From Chryseobacterium indologenes (GTDB taxonomy: Bacteria; Bacteroidota; Bacteroidia; Flavobacteriales; Weeksellaceae): a stretch of 64,000 bases of DNA. The stretch's first letter is position 1, and the number at the start of each line of letters is the position of its first letter. Shown piece by piece: positions 13,788-61,158 of the stretch. A program made the translations under genes and the position numbers. The stretch spans positions 2,728,001 to 2,792,000 of the forward strand of contig CP065590.1 in NCBI GenBank assembly GCA_016025055.1, given 5' to 3'. The notes below the pieces were generated by a model, which saw only the letters and a list, made by a program, of their open reading frames with translations, searched no databases and had not been told where the DNA came from.

Positions 13788-13853
13788 ATTAACCACATAG
13801 AAACATAGGGAATCTACTTTTGTATTGAAAAACTATGTGCCTATGTGGTTAAT
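13788..13853. repeat. Long hairpin repeat of the 'accacatag' family
   Basis: The left arm attaaccacatagaaacata(g) (13788-13808) pairs with the right arm ending ctatgtggttaat (13833-13853) at 19 of 21 positions, with a 24-base loop. The same words (ctatgtg-n-ctatgtggtt) return at 58911 and 61052, and taaccaca also starts the ends of the element at 47194. The rest of the 325-base gap to 14091 holds only the stem-loop at 13987. Confidence 0.75.
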
Positions 13854-33877: not shown

Positions 33878-36644
33878 ATGAGAAATAAAAAAACTATTCT
33901 TTCGGCCTCTGTTCTGTTTTTCCTTGGGGTATATACCTTCGGACAGGAAAAAGACAGCATAAAGACCAATAATGTAGAAGAAGTAGTGGTACTGGGCTCC
34001 AGAGCCGGGGCAAGATCAAAAACTGACAGTCCGGTTCCTGTGGATGTATTCAACATCAAGGAATCTTCAGTCATTTTACCACAAAATAATATCGGCCAGA
34101 TTCTAAATGCTATAGCTCCTTCTTTTACGTCTACCATTCAGACCAATTCAGATGGTACCGATCACCTGGACCCTGCTCAGCTTAGAGGGCTTGGCCCTGA
34201 TCAGGTATTGGTTCTGATGAACGGAAAGAGAAGACATACCTCAGCATTGGTCAATGTAAACGGAACTCCCGGAAGAGGAACGGTAGGAACCGACCTGAAC
34301 GCTATCCCGTCTTTTGCTTTAAACAGAATTGAAGTATTGAGAGATGGGGCTGCTGCCCAATATGGTTCAGATGCCATTGCCGGAGTCATGAATCTTGAAC
34401 TTAAAAGGGATACAGGGGAAACTGGCCGGCCAGATCAGCTACGGAGGCAATTTGACCCCTGCCGCTAATGACCATACCGGAAACTTTGACGGGCAGAATA
34501 TTCAGCTGGACCTGAATTATGGTAATAAAATCGGGACTAAAGGTGGTTTTTTCAATATTACCTGGTCCTCGCAATTCAGAAATCCTACCTACAGAGCAGG
34601 AACAGAAAGTGCTCCTATCTATAATGCCTATAACGCCATCGAAAGACGTGCACTCAATGACGGAGTGAACCTTTCTTCTCTGTTTAATAATATAGGAAAT
34701 ACTCCTAATTCTCAGCAATTGGTAAATTATATCCATCAATATGCCAAGAATGTGGATTATTTTTCACAAAAGTTACAGGATGATATTCAGGGAGCCAACA
34801 CGATCGGAGCATTACAAAATGTGTTGAAATCCGGAAGTTTTACCAGGGATCAGCTTAACTATATAACGGATCAGGAATTGGCCTACAGAGGGCAGACCAG
34901 AAAGGATTTCAATATGCAGGTAGGACAGTCTAAACTCAATAACCATCAGCTTTTTATCAATGCTGAGGTACCTGTGAGTGATGATTGGAAGGTCTATACT
35001 TTTGGAGGCTACAGCCTGAGACATGGTACTTCCGGAGGATTTTACAGAAGACCAAGTGAAAGCAGAACCTTTACGGGATATTATCCGGACGGTTATCTTC
35101 CACAGATCAGTACCGATATCCAGGATATCTCGCTGGCTGCCGGAATCAAAGGAAAATGGGACGGCTGGCATGTCGATTTGAGTAATACTTTCGGGCAAAA
35201 CTCTTTTACATATAACATCGGCAATACAGGAAATACGTCGTTGCGGTTTGCTTCTCCCAAGGAGTTCAATGCCGGAGGTTTAAGATTTACCCAAAACACC
35301 ATCAACCTTGATTTTTCTAAGAAATACGATGTCCTGGAAGGATTAAATGTGGCTTTTGGAGGTGAACACCGTTTTGAAAATTTTAAAATGACCGCAGGGG
35401 AAGAAGCTTCCTATGCTACCTATGATGTTTTCGGAAATGTCTGGAACGGAAATTCCCAAAGACCTACTGATTTCTTTGGAGCCTCACTTCCGGGTGGTTC
35501 ACAGGTGTTCAGTGGATTCAGACCTGAAAATGCTGTCAATAAAAACAGACAGTCAGTAGCAGCGTACGCAGATCTTGAATTCAATTTTACAGACTGGCTT
35601 TTGGTAGATGCCGCAGCGAGATATGAAAATTATTCGGATTTCGGTTCTACTTTTAATTATAAACTGGCCTCAAGAATCAAAGTAGCCCCGAATTTTAATG
35701 TAAGGCTGGCGGGATCTACAGGATTCAGGGCGCCATCCATTCACCAGATCTACTATAATGTTACGTCTACCCTGTTCGTAACTTCACCTCAGCTGCCAAA
35801 CGGACAGCTTCTGGAGGTTGGAACATTCAGTAACGATTCACAGGTGGCAGGATTACTAGGAATACCAAAACTGAAACAGGAAACATCCAAATCGGCCAGT
35901 GTAGGATTTACCTATAAAATCCCATCCGTGAATTTAACATTCACTGCTGACGGATATTTTACCAGGATTGATAACAGAATCCTCCTTACTGACCAGTTTT
36001 TAAAAGCCAGTGTGTCTGATGACGCCAAAAAAATCTATGAGCAGTTAGGGGTGAATGCAGCACAGTTCTTTACCAATGCCATTGATACGGAGACAAAAGG
36101 ATTGGATGTGGTTATCTCGCACAATGCAAGATTTTCCGGGGTAAAATTAGATAATAATTTTGCCATAAACCTTAACCAGACAAAACAGGTGGGAGATATT
36201 CACTCTTCCGGGCTTCTGCGATCTCCGGAGCTTGAAAAAATCTATTTCTCTGAAAAATCAAGAGTCTACCTGGAAGAAGCAGTACCGAGAGTAAAAGCGA
36301 GTCTTTCTCATACCCTTACCTGGAAGAACGCCAGTTTCTATCTTAGGAATACCTATTTTGGTAAAGTGACCGGTGCAGATGTACTCGATGTCAATGGAGA
36401 CGGTGTCATAGGATTCAACGAACATCAGAAAATAGGAGATAAGATTATTACCGATATTTCTGTGGCGTATCAGTTCACTAAAAATATCGGACTGACTTTA
36501 GGGGTCAATAACCTGTTTGATATTTATCCTACGAAAAATCTTCCCGCTTCGGCCAATAATGACCAGTTTGTCTATTCACGGTCTACTTCCCAGTTTGGAC
36601 AAAACGGACGATATGTGTTCAGCAGGCTTAACTTCAACTTTTAA
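33878..36644 (+). CDS. TonB-dependent outer-membrane receptor, broken by a homopolymer frameshift
   Basis: The first part has a signal peptide (ending FFLGVYTFGQ), the TonB box region NNVEEVVVLGSRA, and the plug domain with LRGLGPDQVLVLMNGKRRH and NRIEVLRDGAAAQYGSDAIAG. The frame is lost at G4 (34415-34418); G3 gives RDTGKLAGQISYGGN. The second frame is the 22-strand barrel, ending in the phenylalanine beta-signal (FSRLNFNF). Reconstructed length is about 921 residues. The ligand is unknown: there is no adjacent SusD or siderophore gene. It takes up a large substrate through the outer membrane using TonB energy. Confidence 0.9.
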
Positions 36645-39742: not shown

Positions 39743-39810
39743 TGTTATTATTCAAAATAAAATAGCTTTAGGAAAAAATCCGAAACAAAAAGACATAAGA
39801 AATCAGTCAT

Positions 39811-39893
39811 TTTGCTTTTCCCTACGTCGGTGTAAGCCGTATCAGGTTCAAAGGGACTCTCTCAATTCTTTTCAGAATACCCCTAAAGCAAAA
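39811..39893 (-). promoter_or_regulatory. TPP riboswitch (THI element)
   Basis: On the minus strand the closing helix P1 forms between tttgcttt and aaagcaaa. The pyrimidine-sensing arm has GAGAGAGTCCCTTTGAACCTGAT, in the place of the conserved CUGAGA...ACCUGAU. The pyrophosphate arm ends in the conserved GCGTAGGGAA-like word (CGACGTAGGGAA). It lies between a TACATTTG promoter and thiM. On binding thiamine pyrophosphate it should lower expression of thiM-thiE-thiD-tenA. Confidence 0.92.
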
Positions 39894-39901
39894 CAAATGT
39901 A
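39894..39901 (-). promoter_or_regulatory. -7 promoter element of the thiamine operon
   Basis: TACATTTG on the minus strand directly abuts the 5' end of the riboswitch, so transcription should begin right at P1. Confidence 0.65.
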
Positions 39902-46347: not shown

Positions 46348-47169
46348 TTATTTAATTAAAACCTTCCAGGCTTCTTCGATTTTACTTTCAAGTAATAATT
46401 TCTGTGCATCCTGATGAACATTTTCATCCGCATGGTATTCTCCTGACGGCAATACTTCAACGTTGGCCAGCATTCCCAGGTCATTTCCTGTAAAGATCGT
46501 ACTGTATTTGATGGCATCCGGTAATAGATCAAAGCCGATTCCTTTTGTTACCAAAGGCTTGGGAACTTCGAAAAGGCTGTTTTCATTACTTCTCGAATAC
46601 CAGTTGCTGCCTAACCGTGCCACCATATCCAGTTTTTGCTGATCAAGGTTTCCGGCCTCATTCAGGTATTCCTCTCTGATATGAATCTTCTGCACTTCAC
46701 AAATAACCAGATTTCCGGCACCTCCCAGGTCACCCAGAGATTTTATTTCTAAAACTTTACATTCAAAATTAACCGGACATTCTTCAATGAGTTTAGGTTT
46801 CACCAGATCAGCATCTTTCATCGTCAGGCCAGACTTGATAAATTCGTTTACTCCTGTTTCATATTCTGTTGACGCCAAAGAAATCTGTTGTACAATGGGA
46901 AAATTAACAGTTCCAATCACAACTTCCGGAACTTCGAGAACATTCTCAAGAGTATGTTTGGTCGTATTATCCCGTACTCTCCTTGAGGGTGAAAAGATCA
47001 GGATCGGAGGAACGGTACTGAACATGTTGAAAAAGCTGAACGGAGATAAGTTATGATTACCATTTTTATCCACTGTAGAAGCCAATGCAATCGGACGCGG
47101 TGACACGGCTGTCTGCATGATGGTTTGTAGCTGTACGGAGGTTATTTCAGAGGGGATTACTGTTTTCAT
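46348..47169 (-). CDS. Flavin reductase family protein (DIM6/NTAB type)
   Basis: This protein has 273 residues from ATG 47169 (MKTVIPSEITSVQ). The in-frame start at 47202 would add a non-homologous segment. The FMN-binding split-barrel motif V-S-P-R-P-I-A-L-A-S-T-V lies at about 18-29, followed by NLSPFSFFNMFS and P-S-R-R-V-R-D-N-T-T-K-H-T. This large form is often found beside tyrosine/homogentisate genes in Flavobacteriia. It may be an FMN-linked reductase or oxygenase component. The reaction is unknown. Confidence 0.82.
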   Translation of the reverse strand: MKTVIPSEITSVQLQTIMQTAVSPRPIALASTVDKNGNHNLSPFSFFNMFSTVPPILIFSPSRRVRDNTTKHTLENVLEVPEVVIGTVNFPIVQQISLASTEYETGVNEFIKSGLTMKDADLVKPKLIEECPVNFECKVLEIKSLGDLGGAGNLVICEVQKIHIREEYLNEAGNLDQQKLDMVARLGSNWYSRSNENSLFEVPKPLVTKGIGFDLLPDAIKYSTIFTGNDLGMLANVEVLPSGEYHADENVHQDAQKLLLESKIEEAWKVLIK

Positions 47170-47193: not shown

Positions 47194-47214
47194 TAACCAC
47201 AAAAGTCACAAAAG
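47194..47214 (+). repeat. Left end (21 bp) of the GxxExxY element
   Basis: It begins taaccacaaaagtcacaaaa (first 20 bases) and is the exact reverse complement of 47659-47679. The two copies bracket the GxxExxY gene. Confidence 0.85.
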
Positions 47215-47245
47215 TCTTTAGGCAAATATTGTTAATCATTAAAGC

Positions 47246-47653
47246 TCAAAAAAGCATATCATAATATTTGTTGACAAAAGTTTCTTGTCCATCATGATAA
47301 AGATTTTTTACATTAAAATTGACTAATATGCCTTTTGGCTTTTTCATCAAATTAATATAGTTTAAAAGCTGAGCCCTATGAACATCATTTAATTAAGCTA
47401 CTGATTTTATCTCAATAACAATTAAATCTTCAATTAAAAAATCACAAAAGAAATCACAATGAATTTCTTTTCCTTTGTAATTTACAGGAACTTTCAGCTC
47501 TGATTTAAAATTAATATTTCTTAATCTGAATTCTTCTTCAAGGCATTTATGGTAGACACTTTCTAATAAACCGGCACCCAGAATTTTGTGAACTTCTATG
47601 CAGGCGCCGTTTATCTTGTAGGTCAAATCAGTTAAATATGACAGAGTCATCAT
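47246..47653 (-). pseudogene. GxxExxY protein (PD-(D/E)XK-like nuclease fold) with an in-frame stop
   Basis: The gene is 136 codons with one internal TAA at 47393-47395. The first 86 residues have the name-giving G-A-G-L-L-E-S-V-Y-H block and CDFFCDFLIEDLIVIEIKSVA, with the catalytic-type D...E-x-K of PD-(D/E)XK nucleases. After the stop the same frame continues LNDVHRAQLLNYINLMKKPK and KGILVNFNV to a TGA at 47246, as in intact members. The expected codon at the stop is usually GAA (Glu), so one G-to-T change explains it. The gene lies between fahA and the flavin-reductase-like gene, inside 21-bp inverted repeats. Confidence 0.85.
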
Positions 47654-47658
47654 AAATC

Positions 47659-47679
47659 CTTTTGTGACTTTTGTGGTTA
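47659..47679 (-). repeat. Right end (21 bp) of the GxxExxY element
   Basis: This is an exact inverted copy of 47194-47214. The GxxExxY ATG lies 5 bases inside it, and the fahA stop lies 10 bases outside it. The whole element would be 486 bp. Confidence 0.85.
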
Positions 47680-47689
47680 ATCTTTAATC

Positions 47690-48937
47690 TTAAAGTGTTG
47701 GAATAATTTTACCGGAAACTTCACCGAAACCTACTCTGATTCCATCTTTTTCAGCCCATGCTTTCATGGTAACGGTATCATTGTCTTCGATGAATTTTCT
47801 TTCTTCTCCGTTGCTTAATGATAAAGGATTTTGGCCTCTCCATGTCAGTTCAAGCATTGAGCCGAAAGATTTTGGATCGTTTCCTGAAATCGTTCCGCTG
47901 GCATACATATCACCTACTTCCACATTACATCCGTTGATGGTGTGATGGGCAAGCTGCTGGGTCATATTCCAGTACATGTGCTTGTAATTGCTTTCACAGA
48001 TCAGGTTTTGATCTCCGTTTTCAGGCTGGATGTAGACTTCAAGATTGATATCGTAATTTTTGTCTCCTTCAAATTTTAAATAATCCAAGACCTCAGGATC
48101 CTGTACCGGTGAAGCTGTTTTGAATGGCTCTAAAGCCTCGAGAGTAACTACCCAGGGTGAAATGGATGAGCCGAAGTTTTTCGCCAGGAATGGTCCGAGA
48201 GGAACATATTCCCATGACTGAATATCTCGTGCAGACCAGTCATTGAAAACCACCATTCCGAAGATGGCGTCTTCAGCATCTTTTGTAGAAATACTTTCAC
48301 CCATCTCGGTATTTTTGTTGATGATAAAAGCCATTTCCAGTTCAAAATCCAGCTGCTTGCACGGCCCGAAAACAGGTTTGTCTGCATCGGCAGGTTTCAT
48401 TTGTCCTTTCGGACGGTTGATATCGGTTCCGGAAACGACGATAGAGGAAGCTCTTCCGTGGTAACCTACCGGTAAATGTTTCCAGTTTGGTAACAATGCA
48501 TTGGCAGGATCACGAAACATTTTTCCTACGTTGGTAGCATGTTCGATGCTGCTGTAGAAATCCGTATAGTTCGGGATATGAACAGGCATCATCATTTTTA
48601 TTTTATCCAGGTCGTAGAATGCTTCTTCAATAGTTTTCTGATCTTTTGACAGAGCTGAACCTTCCTGTAATAAGGTCTGGATTTTGGTACGAACGGCATT
48701 GGTGACCGGCTTACCCAGTTCGATAAATTCGTTGATGGTATAGGCTTCAAAAACATTGTCGTTTAAACCTTCAATATCTTCAAAATACCCAAGGTCATAT
48801 AATGTGGCAAGATCAATAACCTGATCACCGATTCTCGTACAACATCCGATGAATTCTTTATTAAAAACTGCGACTCCGAAAGGAATATTGTGTATAGAAA
48901 AATCCGAATTTGAGGAATAGTCTACAAATGATTTCAT
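47690..48937 (-). CDS. fahA: Fumarylacetoacetase
   Basis: This 415-residue protein has an N-terminal SH3-like domain (1-115) and the FAH fold. Metal ligands fall in DFYSSIEHA, QLDFELEMAF and VVFNDWSARDIQSWE, and GYHGRASSIVVSG is the substrate loop. It splits fumarylacetoacetate to fumarate and acetoacetate, the last step of tyrosine breakdown. hppD lies upstream on the same strand and hmgA further up, so the whole lower pathway is in this region. Confidence 0.95.
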   Translation of the reverse strand: MKSFVDYSSNSDFSIHNIPFGVAVFNKEFIGCCTRIGDQVIDLATLYDLGYFEDIEGLNDNVFEAYTINEFIELGKPVTNAVRTKIQTLLQEGSALSKDQKTIEEAFYDLDKIKMMMPVHIPNYTDFYSSIEHATNVGKMFRDPANALLPNWKHLPVGYHGRASSIVVSGTDINRPKGQMKPADADKPVFGPCKQLDFELEMAFIINKNTEMGESISTKDAEDAIFGMVVFNDWSARDIQSWEYVPLGPFLAKNFGSSISPWVVTLEALEPFKTASPVQDPEVLDYLKFEGDKNYDINLEVYIQPENGDQNLICESNYKHMYWNMTQQLAHHTINGCNVEVGDMYASGTISGNDPKSFGSMLELTWRGQNPLSLSNGEERKFIEDNDTVTMKAWAEKDGIRVGFGEVSGKIIPTL

Positions 48938-58882: not shown

Positions 58883-58933
58883 TTTAAAGCCACGAATGCA
58901 CGGACAAAATCTATGTGTCTATGTGGTTTTAAA
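58883..58933. repeat. Imperfect hairpin repeat of the 'accacatag' family
   Basis: The left arm tttaaagccacgaatgcacg (58883-58902) and the right arm from ctatgtgtctatgtggtttt (58911-58933) form an imperfect inverted pair. The right arm shares ctatgtg and ctatgtggtt with the repeats at 13833 and 61052. It lies in the 240-base gap between the thioredoxin-like and cupin genes. Confidence 0.55.
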
Positions 58934-60988: not shown

Positions 60989-61051
60989 TTATAATTAGCG
61001 GAAAAGGCAAAGATGTCGGAATATTATATGCGAAAAGACATTTTACATGAT

Positions 61052-61097
61052 CTATATGTCTATGTGGTTTAAAATTTTTTACCATATAGACACATAG
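61052..61097. repeat. Hairpin repeat of the 'accacatag' family
   Basis: The left arm ctatatgtctatgtggt (61052-61068) and the right arm accatatagacacatag (61081-61097) pair at 15 of 17 positions (the mismatches allow G-U pairs) around a 12-base AT loop. It shares words with the repeats at 13788 and 58911. Confidence 0.7.
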
Positions 61098-61158
61098 GCT
61101 TTTGAATGGCTATAAATTATTGTTTCGGCAGATCAGTGGAATCACTGAAATAGAAAAA

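Follow-up and report, generated by a model that had tools for sequence, protein, structure and literature searches.

Between fahA and a flavin-reductase-like gene of Chryseobacterium indologenes lies a small gene for a predicted nuclease whose two borders mirror each other, and the question raised by this locus is whether the borders are the ends of a unit that belongs to a repeat family, comparable to the repetitive extragenic palindromes (REPs) and the REP-associated tyrosine transposases (RAYTs) that accompany them. The window analysed, which is the whole stretch of 64,000 nucleotides from contig CP065590.1 (GCA_016025055.1, positions 2,728,001 to 2,792,000), carries the element at 47194-47679, and its sole gene encodes a protein of the GxxExxY family. 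GxxExxY genes set between inverted arrays of a short word, though of another word each time, are met with in many bacterial groups and point to a repeat-and-nuclease system, similar to REP/RAYT, that would be new to the literature.

The inverted 21-bp ends claimed by the first-pass annotation are indeed exact copies when read from the window sequence. The left arm (47194-47214, plus strand), TAACCACAAAAGTCACAAAAG, shows two 9-bp words CACAAAAGT at 47198-47206 and 47207-47215, the right arm (47659-47679, minus strand) is its exact inverted copy, and the extended arms 47194-47220 and 47653-47679 are 93% complementary over 27 nt. Within the window the 16-mer TAACCACAAAAGTCAC occurs exactly only at the two ends of the element; allowing up to 3 mismatches, it has 3 matches versus 0.66 expected. 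The nuclease gene (PDDEXK_3, predicted RecB/Cas4-like; 47246-47653, minus strand, final stop codon 47246-47248) is separated from the left arm by an interior spacer (47216-47245) and, as had been described, starts 5 bases inside the right arm, with its first methionine codon at 47653-47651 on the minus strand. The element lies between its two neighbours and interrupts no gene. Equally in line with the first-pass annotation, it contains no transposase, the nuclease being the only gene, and no target-site duplication (TSD) is clear by eye at the fahA locus.

Whether such ends are particular to this copy was answered with 80 GxxExxY loci fetched from many phyla, 79 of which were testable (one flank was too short), by comparing the upstream flank with the reverse complement of the downstream flank of the same locus and using mismatched pairs as control. 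An inverted-repeat (IR) score of at least 14 was reached at 48/79 loci versus 0.45% of the 882 control segments that these loci provided, by which a general property of the surrounding DNA is rejected. Own pairs stood out from mismatched pairs at p<0.05 in 46/79 loci and beat all 156 mismatches in 26/79; direct repeats had p<0.05 in 20 of the 79. In a wider, overlapping set, which includes the 79 loci together with Bacteroidota loci, 92/149 reached the same score. Inverted word-array ends hence flank a majority of the GxxExxY genes tested, in support of the first-pass interpretation. Each end is built by iteration of an 8-9 bp word, in such a way that an outer end like TTAACCAC is followed by the word every 8-9 bases, and the arms are often located near the start and stop codons. 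This one design is found, by record title, in Bacteroidota, Planctomycetota, Verrucomicrobia, Acidobacteria, Chloroflexi and Proteobacteria, with words such as CACAGAG, CACATAG, CGCAGAG, CACGAAG, CACTAAG, CACAAAAGT and CGCAGATTT. Self-identity of the outer ends at lags 8 and 9 is 0.34 and 0.37, versus 0.29-0.30 after shuffling, and in the consensus of 108 outer ends from 92 loci only the T-rich bases before and the AG after the motif are informative, as the ends were anchored on a CCAC-type motif. As a separate observation, long direct repeats (local scores 56-84) occur besides or in place of the inverted ones at loci L158, L162, L168 and L171.

Different copies within one genome tend to use different words. 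In 12 multi-copy Bacteroidota genomes the own pair of flanks was the best in row and column for 38/49 copies chosen among those listed, and own pairs reached a score of at least 14 in 32/49 cases versus 9/158 within-genome cross pairs, so that an artefact of genome composition is rejected; the two ends of a copy agree in a word that tends to be private to it among the copies of its genome. The genome of the window (4.92 Mb) follows this pattern in that a further, intact GxxExxY copy at 3096356 has a different end word, CGCAGATT. Among non-orthologous pairs drawn from 147 of 282 loci (IR score at least 15), the sharing of words rises with protein identity, from about 2% below 50% identity to 11% at 50-55%, 19% at 60-70% and 53% at 70-80% (n=15), and therefore a word moves along with its gene while changing more rapidly than the gene does.

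A recent insertion at the fahA locus is rejected by the distribution over species and by the alignment, which reveal an old and vertically inherited element. As read from match coverage, a CACAAAAG-type element is present between fahA and the flavin-reductase-like gene in 34 of 98 species of the genus, and 26 of these were aligned in order to assess constraint. Pairwise identity in the 26 species is 0.944 for the left arm versus 0.29 directly outside and 0.893 for the right arm versus 0.275 directly outside; it is 0.692 over 47215-47253, 0.645 at third codon positions of the gene and 0.965 and 0.867 at the other two. The arms are thus about as conserved as codon positions 1 and 2, which the bases directly outside are not, although the right arm is without one word in two species (L099, L104). 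The window copy is broken because of an in-frame TAA at 47393-47395, a feature absent from the first-pass annotation; orthologues with an open frame exist in other species. Among copies with a broken frame, 0-4 of the 42 arm bases are changed, and in the window copy none is. At the same site, other species hold a different GxxExxY gene with other ends, the palindrome alone or other hairpins. Open, broken and absent states of the gene are found at one site within one genus, and where the gene is missing, a single arm or another hairpin is often present. Two hairpin families, GATGCTTCGACTCCGCTCAGCATGACA (L111-L120, L258, L280-L287) and AAACCTCATAGGTTTTCGAAACCTATGAGGTTT (L115, L117, L123, L125), fill the same intergenic sites in other species.

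Co-variation of the two arms was observed at one other locus, represented by L066 and built from CACAGATTT words. With arms located independently of their mate in 18 of 22 loci (1 duplicate and 3 loci with a weak arm were dropped), the same minority base occurs on both arms in 19 cells, where permutation gives 9.2 on average (p=0.0025), and mismatched cells number 99 versus 122.5 after permutation (p=0.0005; 18 loci). This test replaces an earlier one (p=0.0005, 17 species), which favours own pairs because the arms had been cut out by mutual alignment. When whole flanks are compared, an excess of own pairs is seen in the L066-type set (p=0.0002, 25 loci) and in the fahA set (p=0.023, 32 loci) and in none of the other five of seven ortholog sets, one of which, the beta-mannosidase locus, has no arms.

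The flanking repeat is also dispersed without the gene, palindrome matches being found at other sites. In the 98 genomes of the genus sample, exact matches to the double word ACCACAAAAGNCACAAAAG number 1030, with 0-50 per genome and at least one in 90 of them, versus 0 for the reversed control. In 12 geneless inverted pairs that were read, the arms are about 100-190 nt apart and the inner tip resembles GAAAATCnnnGATTTTC in 11 (six exactly), the tip of L421 being different; no consistent TSD was seen by eye in these 12 pairs, L410 having a 6-base match on both sides. One geneless copy folds with z -7.45 as single-stranded DNA. One palindrome insertion was dissected: 5 species have it and 7 do not, with two further loci that could not be placed, and sits, as judged by eye and with junctions that are not base-exact, in the loop of a terminator-like hairpin without TSD. 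Geneless palindromes or their halves also occur in tandem direct copies (L422-L428), in which some repeat units include flanking host sequence.

The presence of word arrays is associated with the presence of the gene. In 148 Bacteroidota genomes, 74 with and 74 without GxxExxY, a generic array of three words was found in 24/74 genomes with the gene versus 6/74 without (Fisher p=0.0004, with no phylogenetic correction), the number of hits being 79 (reversed control 5) versus 7 (control 6). Many of the arrays lie distant from the GxxExxY genes listed, as do 8/10 in genome G219 among the matches listed. In the genus, solo arms are somewhat more frequent in genomes with a CACAAAAG-type fahA element (median 10.5 versus 6, p=0.016).

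The protein encoded in the window, with its stop read as X, scores 133.9 bits against TIGR04256 (cut-off 35) and 130.1 bits against PF13366 (cut-off 22). Its family is predicted to have a RecB/Cas4-like PD-(D/E)XK fold; the sequence match to Cas4 is weak in 3/3 proteins tested (E 4e-5 to 5e-3), and a search of PDB by sequence gave a best E of 0.68. In 91 proteins E31, E81 and K83 are invariant and E41, D71, Q95 and Y99 near-invariant, with no cysteine in either kind of column. Judged from these residues, GxxExxY has a conserved PD-(D/E)XK active site, and catalysis is predicted. Matches were found in 94/98 genomes of the genus sample and 74/148 of the phylum sample and were rare off chromosomes (8/72,556 plasmid records in these searches), which returned no viral contig and no phage record with GxxExxY; none of the viral contigs checked for near-identical empty sites encodes a relative. 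One type of GxxExxY gene, situated upstream of what by eye is a beta-mannosidase-like gene (L010-L037 and related loci), is present genus-wide without inverted ends and looks as if domesticated, and a degraded copy of the window genome, in two fragments at 3241044 (G000:C1:3241044), looks like a remnant of it.

How might these observations be connected? The unit can be envisaged as a long imperfect palindrome that encloses a nuclease gene, with arms made of 8-9 bp word arrays and outer ends like TTAACCAC, and it would work as REP/RAYT systems (REPtrons) do, by means of a different enzyme. In single-stranded DNA, such as the lagging strand, the arms would anneal into a long hairpin, to be cut, in the hairpin itself or in its loop, by the RecB/Cas4-type GxxExxY nuclease. 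Copying or transfer would bring the palindrome, which may or may not include the gene, to further sites that are single-stranded or form hairpin loops. Arm-templated repair would keep both arms of a copy alike and let the words of separate copies drift apart. While the anatomy, its generality, the private words and the constraint on the arms are shown by the data, we give a little less than an even chance to an action of GxxExxY on the arms by which the palindromes are moved. The more comprehensive account, in which genome-resident mobile palindromes spanning phyla would carry a minimal Cas4/RecB-like nuclease, keep private words by hairpin-templated repair and shed geneless palindromes into hairpin loops, is put forward tentatively, as somewhat less likely still; a preference for hairpin loops is hinted at by the single dissected insertion, as read by eye.

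Several observations weigh against an active role of the nuclease in spreading the repeat. No near-identical gene-bearing copies were found at different sites among 140 loci, some GxxExxY subfamilies are without arms, and many arms occur in genomes without the cognate gene at the fahA site, 50 in G017 and 30 in G048 (the site is geneless there: L125, L115), as well as 40 in G022, which is without a CACAAAAG-type fahA match. Equal-scoring gene pairs in G089 and G071, which had been considered as recent copies at new sites, were rejected as they belong to different subfamilies. Two GxxExxY genes at L474 represent a local tandem duplication, 96% identical over 738 nt, and two further genes lie near each other at L475. 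The REP-like family proposed by the first-pass annotation accordingly gains from the dispersed geneless palindromes, from arrays being commoner in the presence of the gene and from the different repeats at Y1 transposase loci, and loses by the missing gene-bearing jump and the arm-less subfamilies, with action on the arms as its conjectural part.

The main rival holds that the palindromes are spread by Y1/RAYT enzymes or by template switching in replication, and that GxxExxY has been captured in, or inserts into, palindrome tips without moving them. It would readily accommodate the many arms in genomes with a geneless fahA site, the absence of a gene-bearing jump to a new site and the several kinds of hairpin that occupy one intergenic site in different species, and Y1_Tnp genes, its presumed agents, were present in 12/12 genomes tested. 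Yet the flanks of these genes, surveyed at open reading frames chosen by a loose motif (1 of 8 loci of the first survey yielded none), hold other repeats: compact inverted REPs, for instance GAGTCCCGAAGGGAC and GGAGCTCCGTAGGAGC, accompany several of the genes, others have none, and at 20 Y1_Tnp loci word arrays were found upstream in 2, downstream in 1 and on both sides in 0, for which reason the proposal that RAYT makes the word-array repeats is rejected. With other repeats flanking Y1/RAYT-type genes, GxxExxY could hold the same role for repeats of its own. Neither the mostly own, matched words of GxxExxY copies within a genome nor the rarity of generic arrays in genomes free of GxxExxY, where they are no commoner than the reversed control, is expected of a passenger, and we consider this explanation unlikely, at roughly one half of the credence that an active nuclease deserves. 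In the window genome itself a RAYT-like Y1_Tnp gene with inverted compact hairpins GGAGCTCCGTAGGAGCGAACTG (G000:C1:3934674-3935018, L499) represents a REP-type system of the classical kind, which coexists with that of GxxExxY.

A nuclease maintained by the host or of the homing type, which would persist by cutting and gene conversion through invasion, decay and loss, with arms as recognition or regulatory sites rather than transposing ends, is improbable in a higher degree. It is favoured by the finding of intact, decayed and missing genes at a single site within the genus, by the vertical inheritance of arms and gene that are both constrained, and by a PD-(D/E)XK fold common to restriction enzymes and Cas4/RecB-type nucleases; palindromes free of the gene at many sites, and gene-free sites that often hold single arms or other hairpins, speak against it, and homing nucleases are not known to need inverted iterated ends. 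A role at the RNA level without mobility, in which pairing of the arms within the transcript would regulate how strongly the nuclease mRNA is expressed or how stable it is, has very little to commend it, for although the arms pair in the predicted single-strand DNA fold of the element (z -4.49, DNA parameters), co-vary at one locus and often lie near start and stop codons, they recur gene-free as dispersed palindromes, pairing needs no iterated words and a search of Rfam gave no family match at the element.

The neighbours outside the element are the flavin-reductase-like gene on the left (46348-47169, minus strand) and the fumarylacetoacetase-like fahA on the right (47690-48937, minus strand), both named by inspection and after the first-pass annotation. 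Elsewhere in the window the arms had been said to share TAACCACA with hairpins at 13788, 58883 and 61052, which holds for the first and is only partly right for the other two, as these carry related ACCACATAG-type words. Exact TAACCACA is found at 13790, 13844, 36107, 47194 and 47672, the one at 36107-36114 being on the minus strand. The hairpin at 13788-13853, ATTAACCACATAG ... CTATGTGGTTAAT, is geneless and of the same design with another word; by inspection, 58885-58932 is a degenerate pair of arms, CCACGAATGCACGG / CTATGTGTCTATGTGGTTTT, and 61048-61108 holds two ACCAC-type arms in back-to-back polarity, CTATATGTCTATGTGG / ACCATATAGACACATAG. The sole Rfam match in the window is a thiamine pyrophosphate (TPP) riboswitch at 39802-39894 (minus strand, 71.4 bits).

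GxxExxY is a common and unexplained family, for which a nuclease gene in a mirrored repeat unit provides a context. In the one open-licence collection searched, the name GxxExxY occurs in 2 papers and PF13366 or TIGR04256 in one, and no description of the inverted ends was found. If the nuclease indeed works on its arms, many unexplained interspersed repeats (CACAGAG-, CGCAGAT- and CACAAAAG-type) would be tied to one gene family, and direct tests would be possible, namely recognition of its own ends by the nuclease, and ends that are alike within one copy while copies differ.

Compared with known systems, homing endonuclease genes share with the unit the lone nuclease gene and its open, decayed and absent states at one site, whereas GxxExxY has inverted iterated ends and many geneless palindromes. 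As with insertion sequences and their miniature inverted-repeat transposable elements (MITEs), geneless derivatives share the ends of the gene-bearing unit, but the only gene of the latter is a nuclease and not a known transposase, no consistent TSD was seen and no gene-bearing copies were found at new sites among the 140 loci. Nucleases of the Cas4/RecB family share the predicted PD-(D/E)XK fold; while Cas4 has an Fe-S cluster and CRISPR neighbours, GxxExxY comprises about 130 aa and is bracketed by repeats. The closest parallel in anatomy is the published RAYT unit, in which the gene is flanked by two inverted REPs and palindromes are kept via complementary changes (PMC2817692). Trees of RAYTs and REPs are reported to share their topology and the system to behave in a housekeeping-like way (PMC2817692; PMC8266576), a habit judged from copy number and presence on plasmids (PMC8266576), and REPs are reported to measure 20-40 bp (PMC3733652). 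Both systems have a gene flanked by inverted repeats, dispersed geneless copies, complementary changes in the palindrome (for GxxExxY, co-variation at one locus) and a housekeeping-like habit by copy number and plasmid presence. In contrast, the predicted enzyme of GxxExxY is a RecB/Cas4-like PD-(D/E)XK protein and not a Y1 HUH transposase, its ends form inverted pairs over a long range, each end being an iterated 8-9 bp word and not by itself a compact palindrome, and it is found in many phyla, where a genome has several copies and each of these tends to a private word. If the proposed role is true, the system would represent a counterpart of REP/RAYT that relies on an enzyme of unrelated origin.
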